Assembly (NCBI RefSeq): GCF_019599405.1
Contig: NZ_RKLQ01000002.1
Span: 248,001-312,000, forward strand
DNA: 64,000 bases
Reading direction: 5' to 3'
Source of the DNA: Haloarcula salinisoli
GTDB lineage: Archaea; Halobacteriota; Halobacteria; Halobacteriales; Haloarculaceae
In this document: positions 3,789 through 6,800 of the stretch, in pieces
Numbering within the stretch: the stretch's first letter is position 1
Layout of the letters: every line of letters starts with the position of its first letter
Notes under the pieces: model-generated
Seen by the model: the letters and a program-made list of their open reading frames with translations, nothing else
The model's database searches: none
What the model was told of the DNA's origin: nothing
Translations under genes and position numbers: made by a program

Positions 3789-4421
3789 CTACAGCACGTC
3801 TCGCTCTTCGAGCAGCGTGTACAGCTCGTCCATCGTCGAGACGGTCACGTCACACGCGGGCTCGACGGCGGGTTTCGGCTCGAAGCCGACGGCCAGTCCG
3901 GCGACTTCGAGCATCGGGAGGTCGTTGGCGCCGTCGCCGATGGCGATGGTATCCGACCGGTCCTCGCCGACGATAGCCGTCGCGACTTCCAGGGCGTCGT
4001 CTTTGGTGCCCTCGATGAGCGGGCCTTCGACCGCGCCGGTCAGTGCGCCGTCCGCGACCGGCAGGCGGTTGGCGACGATGGCGTCGACCTCGACGCCCTC
4101 CGTTTCGAGTGCAGCTTCGACCCCGCGGTCGAACCCGCCGGTCAGAATCGAGACGTAGTGGCCGGCCTCCCGTAGCGCGGCGATGACCTCGGCCGCGCCG
4201 GGGCGCAGCTCGACCTCGTCGAAGGCCGCCTGTGCCTGCTCGTCGGGCAGGTCAGCGAGCAGTTCACAGCGCTGGCGAAGGCTCTCGGCGTATTCTATCT
4301 CGTTGTTCATCGCCCGCTCGGTGATATCGGCCATGTCCTGGGCGGTGCCGTTCTGGTTGCCCAGCAACACGGTCATCTCCGAGTCGGAGAGGGTCCCGTC
4401 GAAGTCGAAGGCGACTAGCAT
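3789..4421 (-). CDS. serB: Phosphoserine phosphatase SerB
   Basis: A 210-residue HAD-superfamily hydrolase catalysing the last step of serine biosynthesis (O-phosphoserine to serine). Motif I is DFDGT at residues 6-10, with nucleophile D6 and acid/base D8. Motif II is S91-x-LTGG, motif III is K140 and motif IV is GDGAND at 162-167. The frame is open far upstream, but the natural start is ATG 4421, directly before LVAFDFDGTL. The upstream residues are not family-like. Length matches archaeal SerB. Confidence 0.93.
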   Translation of the reverse strand: MLVAFDFDGTLSDSEMTVLLGNQNGTAQDMADITERAMNNEIEYAESLRQRCELLADLPDEQAQAAFDEVELRPGAAEVIAALREAGHYVSILTGGFDRGVEAALETEGVEVDAIVANRLPVADGALTGAVEGPLIEGTKDDALEVATAIVGEDRSDTIAIGDGANDLPMLEVAGLAVGFEPKPAVEPACDVTVSTMDELYTLLEERDVL

Positions 4422-4545
4422 TGCGTGGTGGTTCTGGGCCAAACCTTTCAAACTATCCGGTTTCACCCGGGCGGCGAAAACCGATACACAGTGCTGTTGG
4501 AACGGACGTATCGGGGATAAAATGGGTGTGGTTGGCGAGACGTCG

Positions 4546-4668
4546 CTACGCCAATTCCAAACAGAAATAGGTTGTTCTCCAGAAGTCGCCGTGACACGAC
4601 GCGTTTTCACGCTCTTCAAGTTCGAAATCGGGGCTCTCGTCCAGGGATTCGATATAGTGGTCTGACAT
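4546..4668 (-). CDS. Candidate RiPP-type precursor peptide (40 aa)
   Basis: A 40-codon frame from ATG 4668 to TAG 4546, divergent from the ATP-grasp gene. The first 22 residues are strongly acidic (MSDHYIESLDESPDFELEE and on) and contain an F-x-L patch at 15-17, like leader motifs bound by RRE domains. The last 17, SCHGDFWRTTYFCLELA, change character: two Cys (25 and 36), Trp, Tyr, a Thr-Thr pair, Asp and Glu. That is a credible core for a cyclised or crosslinked peptide. An AT-rich TATA-like tract lies 18-35 nt upstream, which implies a leaderless transcript. Being real, and being the substrate of the neighbouring enzymes, are inferences; no homologue could be checked. Confidence 0.5.
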   Translation of the reverse strand: MSDHYIESLDESPDFELEERENASCHGDFWRTTYFCLELA

Positions 4669-4685
4669 CCCAATATGAAGGTTAG

Positions 4686-4703
4686 AAATAATAAATAATA
4701 AAT
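4686..4703 (-). promoter_or_regulatory. TATA-like promoter of the 40-aa peptide
   Basis: An uninterrupted A/T tract, read on the minus strand as TTTATTATTTATTATTTC, in otherwise GC-rich DNA. Its centre is about 27 nt ahead of ATG 4668, the usual spacing for a leaderless haloarchaeal transcript. Confidence 0.5.
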
Positions 4704-4730
4704 GTAGTGGTAGAAGAAATTAAATCACTG

Positions 4731-4749
4731 CGCGACTGCGGCAGTCGCG
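4731..4749. promoter_or_regulatory. Perfect palindrome midway between divergent promoters
   Basis: CGCGACTGCGGCAGTCGCG has 9-bp arms around one central G. The centre (4740) is about 45 nt from the TATA-like tract of the peptide gene (centre about 4695) and 46 nt from that of the ATP-grasp gene (about 4786). This is where a shared operator would sit. Alternatively, it belongs to the class of short perfect hairpins with 3-nt loops seen elsewhere in the window. Confidence 0.45.
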
Positions 4750-4773
4750 GGGGTCGTGGATTAGTATCTCACT

Positions 4774-4789
4774 CGAAAACGCTTATTTT
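4774..4789 (+). promoter_or_regulatory. BRE/TATA-like promoter of the ATP-grasp gene
   Basis: CGAAAACG (BRE-like) is followed by TTATTTT at 4783-4789, centred 26 nt before ATG 4812. This spacing supports ATG 4812 as a leaderless start rather than the in-frame ATG at 4803. Confidence 0.5.
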
Positions 4790-4811
4790 CCTATATCTGA
4801 AAATGAAATAT

Positions 4812-5765
4812 ATGTCTATTGTCGTCATCGGTCGGGCGGGGTTGGGTGAAATCCAGCTCCTCGAAGCAGCGCTCCGTGACCAGGGTGGTGACCCAATCGT
4901 CGTCGACATCTCCGAGTGGCCCGGCGGGGCTCCCATACGGCTCGACCCGGCGAGCGACGAGTTCGTCACGGACGCCCAGTTTTCCCTGGACGATGTCGGC
5001 AGCGTCTACGCCCACGCCCCCTCCCTGTTCCGACCAACAGATATCTGCTTCAAGAAACAGTTCGACGACCAGAACCCGTATTCGGCGTTGATACAGCTCA
5101 AGGAGTATCGCAGTCTCTTCGAAAGTCTCTGCCGGGTTTTCGAGTCGAACGGCGTTCCCGTGATTCCGAGCGAGTCCACCCACTACCTCCAGGAGCGAAA
5201 GCCCTGGCAGCTCCGCCAGTTCGAACAGCGGGACCTTCCGGTTCCAGATACGGTGTTTACCAACGACCCGTCGGTCGTCCGGGAGTTCTGTTCTGCACAC
5301 GAGCGGGTACTGTTCAAACCAGTATCCCGCGGGGCGGAGCCAAACGTCGTGACCGAGGCGGACCTGGACCCCGAGAAGCTCGCTAACCTCGAGACTGCGC
5401 CGGTCCAGTTCCAGGCGTTCGTCCCCGGCGAGGACCTCCGGGTCTACGTTCTCGACGGCGCGGTTGTCGGTGCGACCAGATACGAGAGCGAGGCCTACTC
5501 GTTCAAGGTCGCGGACCGGCGCGGCGAGGAGGTCGAGCTGGTCCCGGCGACGCTCTCATCTGAGGTCCGCGAGACAGCACTGGCTGCCGCAGACGCGACC
5601 GGACTCACCTTCGGCGCCGTCGATATCCGCCGACGTCCCGATGGCGGGCACGCGCTCCTCGAGGTGAACCAGACCCCCGCGTTCGCCTACGCCGATGCCA
5701 ACAGCGGCCAGTCTGTGAGCGATGCGCTGGCGAAGTACCTGACGACGACTGCCCACCAACCGTGA
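4812..5765 (+). CDS. ATP-grasp enzyme, putative peptide-modifying ligase
   Basis: A 317-residue ATP-grasp protein resembling RimK and MvdD-type peptide maturases. The N-terminal pre-ATP-grasp part (about 1-120) starts SIVVIGRAGLG. ATP-grasp landmarks are K130 (ERKPW), K169 (LFKPVSRG), the QAFVPGEDLRVYV strand with R210, D271 (DIRR) and E284/N286 (LLEVNQTP). The end, SGQSVSDALAKYL, is also like graspetide cyclases. Such enzymes form amide or ester bonds by acyl-phosphate activation. The following gene overlaps by 4 nt (GTGA), so the two should be co-translated. Substrate and bond type cannot be read from sequence; glutamate ligase activity is the main alternative. ATG 4812 was chosen from promoter spacing; ATG 4803 is possible. 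Confidence 0.8.
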   Translation: MSIVVIGRAGLGEIQLLEAALRDQGGDPIVVDISEWPGGAPIRLDPASDEFVTDAQFSLDDVGSVYAHAPSLFRPTDICFKKQFDDQNPYSALIQLKEYRSLFESLCRVFESNGVPVIPSESTHYLQERKPWQLRQFEQRDLPVPDTVFTNDPSVVREFCSAHERVLFKPVSRGAEPNVVTEADLDPEKLANLETAPVQFQAFVPGEDLRVYVLDGAVVGATRYESEAYSFKVADRRGEEVELVPATLSSEVRETALAAADATGLTFGAVDIRRRPDGGHALLEVNQTPAFAYADANSGQSVSDALAKYLTTTAHQP

Positions 5766-6736
5766 CGCCCGAGACTGAGACCACGATTCCAGACGGCGAG
5801 TTCGGTTTCACCTGGGGAGCCACGGAGTCGCTCTGGTACCTGCTGGACAGTGATGGGGGACTTCGGGGCGTCTCGGAGGACGTCGTCACGATGCTCCGGG
5901 ACTTGGCCACCGGCGAACTCTCAAGGGACGAACTGCCGGACAATGCGGCCACCGTCCTCGACCGCTTGATAGAGCAGGGGTACGTCCGCCAGAACGGCCC
6001 CGTCGAACGGGTGGTCACACCCGACGATATCCGATTCTGGCCACGGGCGGCGCTGTTCCTCGGTCTGGCCTCGGTACTGGTCACCGTCGCCGCGTCACAG
6101 ATCGGCTCACTTCCGAACAGTGTGAGCGCACTGACCCCGTTCGATATCGTGACTGTCGTGGCCCTCACAATCGTCACGATACTCGTTCACGAGGGGGGCC
6201 ACTACGTCGCGTCCCGGCCGTACTTCGACCCCTCGCTCCAGCTCTCGACGATGAACGGCATTATCCCGGTCTTGACCACGAAGACCCACGAGGCCTGGAT
6301 ACTTCCCCGTAATGTGCGGCGGTGGATCAGTCTGGCCGGGCCCTTCGTGGAGGTAAGCTTCATCCTGTCGGTCGTCGGCGCCACCGTCGGGGCGGCCGGC
6401 TGGACGCTCGGACTCCAGCTCTACGTCATCGGGTCGGTGTTCCGGATTGCCGGCAGTCTCTGTCCACTGTTCCACGGCGACGGCTACTGGCTGTTCGTGG
6501 ACACGTTCGGACTCGTGAACGTCCGAAAACGTGGCCTGGAGGACTTCCGCGAACGGACGATTTCGGGGCCGTCGGCATACATCGTCGTCTCGTATGCGTT
6601 CGCCGGCATCCTCATCTCCGTCTCGTTGATTTCGATGCTCCTCAGGGGCCCGGTCGGTATCGCGGTGGCCGCCGTCTGGGGCCTGGTCGTCCTCTACGCG
6701 AAACGGGACCGCCTGCCAGGGGCACAGCTCGGGTGA
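5762..6736 (+). CDS. PqqD-like (RRE) domain fused to membrane M50-type metalloprotease
   Basis: A 324-residue protein starting at GTG 5762, overlapping the ATP-grasp stop. Residues about 12-78 form a small winged-helix unit (ESLWYLLDSDGG, VVTMLRDLATGELSRDELP, VLDRLIEQGYV), the layout of PqqD-like RiPP recognition elements. Membrane segments follow. The one at about 125-142 leads into HEGGH (143-147), a complete HEXXH zinc site. HGDGYWLFVD (238-247) matches the LDGYYLLSD-type motif of M50 peptide zinc metalloproteases such as YydH. Hydrophobic segments at about 195-235 and 270-312 complete the membrane domain. The likely role is to bind a leader peptide and cleave or help export it. The fusion and coupling to an ATP-grasp enzyme point to peptide maturation. 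Confidence 0.8.
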   Translation: MTPETETTIPDGEFGFTWGATESLWYLLDSDGGLRGVSEDVVTMLRDLATGELSRDELPDNAATVLDRLIEQGYVRQNGPVERVVTPDDIRFWPRAALFLGLASVLVTVAASQIGSLPNSVSALTPFDIVTVVALTIVTILVHEGGHYVASRPYFDPSLQLSTMNGIIPVLTTKTHEAWILPRNVRRWISLAGPFVEVSFILSVVGATVGAAGWTLGLQLYVIGSVFRIAGSLCPLFHGDGYWLFVDTFGLVNVRKRGLEDFRERTISGPSAYIVVSYAFAGILISVSLISMLLRGPVGIAVAAVWGLVVLYAKRDRLPGAQLG

Positions 6737-6746
6737 CCCGAAACAG

Positions 6747-6792
6747 GGACCTCACTCCGTTCGGTCCTGCGAACCGGTGGCGAAGCCACCGG
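6747..6792. repeat. Two hairpins between convergent genes
   Basis: The first hairpin is GGACC (6747-6751), 11-nt loop TCACTCCGTTC, GGTCC (6763-6767). The second is CCGGTGGC (6774-6781), loop GAA, GCCACCGG (6785-6792). The first belongs to the constant 11-nt loop family. They sit between the stops of the protease and helicase genes and could act as a bidirectional 3' end. Confidence 0.7.
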
Positions 6793-6800
6793 ACACGCAG

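Follow-up and report, generated by a model that had tools for sequence, protein, structure and literature searches.

A predicted haloarchaeal graspetide precursor encoded beside a PsnB-like ATP-grasp ligase and an RRE-site-2 protease fusion

Introduction

What does a 40-codon open reading frame (ORF) beside an ATP-grasp gene encode in a haloarchaeon, if it encodes anything? The frame lies at positions 4546-4668 (minus strand) of a 64,000-nucleotide stretch of the Haloarcula salinisoli genome (the window), between the genes for SerB (3789-4421, minus strand) and an ATP-grasp protein (4812-5765, plus strand), from which it is divergent and 143 bp upstream. The original prediction, made from the DNA letters, described it as a candidate precursor peptide with a leader-like and a core-like part and proposed ester links of the ATP-grasp kind. 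To our knowledge, graspetides were previously known almost solely from bacteria. Openly available surveys of archaeal RiPPs cover lanthipeptides and YcaO, radical-SAM and lasso types, and graspetides are not among them (PMC12144867, PMC10105419). A 2026 survey, in its accessible text, describes an archaeal graspetide group confined to Thermoprotea; haloarchaeal members may be listed in its supplement (PMC13097080). Because of that group, archaeal graspetides are not wholly new.

Results and Discussion

The short frame is very probably a genuine RiPP precursor gene

The ORF starts with ATG, ends cleanly with TAG and is translated as MSDHYIESLDESPDFELEERENASCHGDFWRTTYFCLELA. A leave-one-out precursor profile, from which the window ORF was excluded, placed it first among the 1430 ORFs of the window. 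Its E-value was 7e-8 and that of the runner-up 0.17, indicating that it is more than a chance frame. In its leader, 14 codons differ from those of the cognate at locus L055, 7/14 synonymously, and the protein is recognisably conserved in that stretch. The gene has a G+C content of 50%, between that of the intergenic DNA (37%) and the window (65%). The translation bears out the residues singled out earlier: two cysteines 11 apart (Cys25 and Cys36), Thr32 and Thr33, Asp28 and Glu38.

A direct search for the peptide in 146 family genomes recovered only the query, with no close ortholog outside its own genome (best other E = 0.1), and a single-protein scan of the genome contigs found nothing. No family for the peptide was found in Pfam or NCBIfam, and no PDB chain matched the precursor profile. 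A reading of the region as an RNA element is unsupported, since Rfam finds no RNA within 4400-4850.

A TATA-like T/A tract, TTTATTATTTATTATTT (4686-4702, minus strand), is located 18-34 nt upstream of the ATG. When the DNA upstream of 25 cognate precursors is aligned, the A+T fraction reaches its maximum, 0.84, between -38 and -32. This makes a TATA box plausible, with a 5' leader that is very short or missing, and in this looser sense the leaderless spacing first proposed may hold. The AT-rich divergent intergenic region also contains a perfect 9-bp inverted repeat with a 1-nt spacer, CGCGACTGC-G-GCAGTCGCG (4731-4749). It is a possible operator; no such repeat turned up in the few relatives scanned.

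The ATP-grasp protein is closest to the plesiocin macrocyclase

The best NCBIfam match of the ATP-grasp protein was TIGR04187, a graspetide-type maturase (E = 6e-28, below the cut-off). A profile of 17 haloarchaeal homologues matched PsnB (PDB 7drm) over its full length at E = 1e-70, far ahead of MdnC, CdnC and RimK (about 1e-18 for RimK); the same profile also matched MdnB and AMdnB. The enzyme is thus homologous to characterised graspetide ligases. Its AlphaFold model (pLDDT 87) has PsnB as the top Foldseek match in the PDB (TM 0.83), and the catalytic-type K/D/E/N columns are invariant in the alignment. In the ATP-grasp tree, rooted at the midpoint only, the nearest sequences from outside are Bacillota loci with TTxxxxEE cores. 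Sequence comparison and the predicted fold therefore place the window enzyme closest to PsnB, the macrocyclase of the group 2 graspetide plesiocin, and the tree agrees with a ligase of this type.

The downstream gene encodes an RRE-site-2 protease fusion

The ATP-grasp gene overlaps by 4 bp with a gene (5762-6736, plus strand) whose product weakly matches NF041824 (daptide_HExxH, the daptide intramembrane protease; E = 3.6e-7, below the cut-off). In the structural model (pLDDT 89.6), residues 11-78 (5792-5995) form an RRE-like winged helix resembling leader-bound lasso-peptide RREs (6jx3_B, lasso B1/leader, Z 6.1; 5v1u_C, Z 5.5); these Z-scores, from VIA-align, are middling, but the leader-bound RREs among the matches are two in number and independent of each other, and a heterocyclase RRE is matched as well. 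The C-terminal S2P domain (about residues 124-298) resembles RseP (Z 10.4) and SpoIVFB (Z 9.5) and contains the HExxH zinc motif HEGGH (residues 143-147; 6188-6202), of which H143, E144 and H147 are invariant in the alignment. The protein thus combines an N-terminal RRE with an S2P metalloprotease, as does MpaP, the fusion that removes daptide leaders (PMC10036551). Most leader proteases of graspetides are unknown (PMC8939145, PMC12291112).

Cognate precursors share a leader and differ in their cores

The ATP-grasp and RRE-S2P pair occurs in 6/146 family genomes and 17/392 order genomes, with no further carriers in a class-wide sample. A cognate short ORF is found in about 20 haloarchaeal loci with the ATP-grasp. 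Cognates were spotted first in the DNA upstream of and divergent from the ATP-grasp gene, and then, by profile, convergent and downstream at other loci. They share one leader motif, [HT][FY][IV]E-x-L...(L/V)EER-x-N, followed by a variable core, generally with Thr/Ser and Asp/Glu. Their presence at nearly every related locus (none was detected at L075, which is incomplete) upholds the proposed split into leader and core as well as the link to the ATP-grasp. In the window, the leader corresponds to residues 1-23, MSDHYIESLDESPDFELEERENA (4600-4668), the exact boundary of which we infer, and the core to residues 24-40, SCHGDFWRTTYFCLELA (4546-4599). The F-x-L first seen as the leader feature was not retained; conservation falls instead on H-(F/Y)-I-E-x-L, close to the N terminus, and on LEER-x-N, which precedes the core. 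Over 22 loci, the ATP-grasp and the M50 protease are the only conserved neighbours; no other conserved cluster gene, such as a transporter or regulator, was found there.

Core types track the ATP-grasp tree. Plesiocin and group 2 cores are defined by TTxxxxEE repeats. In clade B, which comprises Natrialbaceae and some members of the window's family, cores are of the type TTxAxGEE (TTLAVGEE, TTMALGEE, TTFAIGEE) or TTxAxGEC, frequently joined by a TxACxETGC unit as the second. Clade C cores follow [TS][TSC]xxx[ED], and those of clade D, with two ATP-grasps, are TSxPxDD-like. The Bacillota loci nearest outside the haloarchaea combine repeated TTMALGEE/TTQAVGEE/TTFALGEE units, which match the clade B cores, with the leader LFIEELE, an M50 neighbour and a related ATP-grasp. 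Clade A, comprising the window and Halorussus at a node that is not strongly supported, has variable, T-containing cores, half of them with two cysteines.

The window core ends in RTTYFCLELA. Its one TTxxxxE unit has L as the next residue, with a single acid where the plesiocin-type motif has its EE pair. TTxxxxE arises in 0.5% of shuffles and TTxxCxE in 0.08%, and TTYFCLE parallels the second repeat of L087 (TTMACFE, the most alike) and TTQACYE of L088. Zero, one and two cysteines occur in 11, 2 and 15 cores, against Poisson expectations of 8.9, 10.2 and 5.8; these cores are phylogenetically non-independent, yet the pattern appears in both clades A and B. The over-representation of two-Cys cores fits the disulfide proposed earlier. 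Six clade A cores (L056-L059, L079, L080) lack Asp/Glu 3-9 residues after a Thr/Ser, showing that the TTxxxxE rule is not universal in the window's clade. Cores without a downstream acid there include YYTGGCIAYC, RVTCPLSC, VVSTPITWFGG and ALTGVMGNVYFGA; in L079 an Asp stands only two residues after the Thr. Such cores do not sit easily with an ester between side chains and constitute the main unexplained point.

The three genes form a block that is missing from several congeners

The peptide, ATP-grasp and RRE-S2P genes together span 4465-6800, flanked by SerB and an XPD-like helicase. The order MetY-SerB-XPD is kept in congeners, and in several of them SerB and the helicase almost touch, with a 2.3-kb block missing. 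At L181, window positions 4464 and 6805 correspond to 2170 and 2202, so about 30 bp stand in place of the window's 2.34 kb; junctions at L182-L184, L187, L169 and L172 are similar. Other congeners have several hundred bp of unrelated DNA at this site. Neither a cognate peptide (best E = 0.47) nor an M50 gene was found at the congener loci without the block, indicating that peptide, ligase and protease are gained or lost together.

Comparison with known systems

Among known systems, plesiocin (PsnA2/PsnB) comes nearest. Similarities include a single ATP-grasp closest to PsnB, TTxxxxEE cores in relatives of the window locus and, in the Bacillota members examined here, a short N-terminal leader motif F-I/V-E-E/D-L. 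The window system differs in its haloarchaeal host, in a core with one TTxxxxE and two cysteines rather than TTxxxxEE repeats, and in its neighbouring RRE-S2P protease, whereas the accessible text of the survey reports group 2 with an NHLM-type transporter (PMC13097080). Microviridins (MdnB/MdnC) share the ATP-grasp fold and precursor-directed ligation, but the window leader lacks PFFARFL, there is no microviridin core, and the locus has one ATP-grasp instead of two ligases. Group 36 of Thermoprotea is likewise made up of predicted archaeal graspetides; as described in that same accessible text, it is set apart by its confinement to Thermoprotea and by co-occurrence with a weak chromosome-segregation HMM match instead of an RRE-S2P (PMC13097080).

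The protease resembles MpaP in domain order, in its NF041824 similarity and in the proposed removal of a leader (PMC10036551). Unlike daptide clusters, these loci have an ATP-grasp and no conserved aminotransferase, methyltransferase or dehydrogenase: MpaB, C, D and M, which convert a C-terminal Thr to Dmp, are not among the conserved neighbours over 22 loci, and the window cassette is bounded by SerB and the XPD-like helicase. Judged by ligase and precursor, the window system belongs with the graspetides, nearest to group 2, and would form a side-chain ester or amide macrocycle.

Proposed pathway and alternatives

Taken as a whole, the comparisons suggest, with a probability of roughly 85%, that ORF 4546-4668 encodes the precursor of a haloarchaeal graspetide. 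In the best reading, the product would carry at least one Thr-Glu macrolactone and perhaps a Cys25-Cys36 disulfide, its leader being cut by the RRE-S2P. The peptide would be made from its own divergent promoter, and its acidic, helix-prone leader (HYIESL...LEEREN) would dock on the PsnB-like ligase. The ligase would phosphorylate a core carboxylate, most likely that of Glu38, which Thr33 or Thr32 would attack; closure of the omega-ester macrocycle would lower the mass by 18 Da. A disulfide between Cys25 and Cys36 may add a second ring. The RRE of the neighbouring protein would then bind the leader; the zinc protease of that protein, embedded in the membrane, would clip it off and so free the core. 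With a single acid at the E position, the Thr pair should yield one ring. By analogy with the TTxxxxEE relatives, an ester from Thr33 or Thr32 to Glu38 is favoured; the Thr-to-acid part of the original prediction holds up well, and its other candidate acid, Asp28, is weaker and precedes the Thr pair. The ORF, the homologies, the co-inheritance, the conserved motifs and the folds are shown by the analysis; from them we infer that the peptide is expressed, ligated with this ring connectivity and a disulfide, cleaved and exported, and that it acts in protease inhibition or signalling. Several observations weigh against the graspetide reading: the one acid in place of an EE pair, the clade A cores lacking an acid 3-9 residues after a Thr/Ser, the ATP-grasp loci with no M50 gene nearby, and the lack of a close peptide ortholog elsewhere in the 146 family genomes.

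The acid-free cores of the window's clade, together with the strong conservation of EER before the core, lend some weight to a RiPP precursor that serves this ATP-grasp and is closed or capped differently, through activation of the C-terminal carboxylate or the leader-proximal LEER Glu, or through ligation of an external amine. The window core, however, has TTxxxxE, the enzyme is closest to PsnB, and acids follow Thr/Ser in all of clades B, C and D, so that we regard this as quite unlikely. Likewise quite unlikely is a more far-reaching proposal: that the plesiocin-type ligase of this clade has moved to new ring chemistry, in which cores of 8-17 residues that lack a usable side-chain acid are closed via a leader-proximal Glu or their own C-terminal carboxylate. 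A disulfide would serve as second lock, and release would fall to an RRE-guided intramembrane protease and not a peptidase-containing transporter.

Two other explanations dispense with a modified peptide and are both very improbable. The RimK, LysX and MptN families give significant matches to the ATP-grasp, and RimK is among its fold matches, as would suit a RimK/LysX-type amino-acid ligase whose substrate is a protein or metabolite, encoded next to an unrelated microprotein; the far better PsnB match, the adjacent cognate precursors with plesiocin motifs and the RRE protein in the operon argue against it. That no peptide is made, the ORF being a chance frame or an upstream extension of the SerB frame region, would accord with its shortness and with a SerB frame that is open upstream across the region. 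This is countered by the leave-one-out match and by the position of the region within the block missing from congeners in which the SerB alignment stops at about this point. The graspetide precursor is the preferred reading.

On this reading, the loci would define a family of haloarchaeal graspetides together with the gene for the precursor. The minimal cassette has three genes, acquired or lost as one unit, and the RRE-S2P would be a candidate remover of the graspetide leader. With the acid-free cores, it becomes possible to test directly how far the ring chemistry of ATP-grasp enzymes extends. Survey supplements aside, no earlier description of graspetides paired with an RRE-S2P and divergent acid-poor cores was found in the open literature.

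Variant locus architectures

Several loci depart from the window arrangement. Three Halorussus loci (L070, L071, L072) have two tandem ATP-grasp genes, one short TSxPxDD-type precursor and an RRE-S2P on the opposite strand. At three others (L079, L080, L081) the precursor adjoins the ATP-grasp with no RRE-S2P within about 10 kb, and two of these species have a second locus with one; a Halorussus family search added one locus, in genome G303, seemingly identical with L079. At L079-L081 and L088, no M50 gene was found close to the ATP-grasp. At L076/L088, a single ATP-grasp gene is accompanied by three precursor ORFs in tandem, which differ in their cores, and the RRE-S2P match of this genome is on another contig. 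In Metabacillus malikii (L091, 4172-4408), a plesiocin-like precursor with three TTxxxxEE units adjoins an ATP-grasp and an M50 gene, a context in which group 2 graspetides of bacteria, too, may be served by a protease of the RRE-S2P type.
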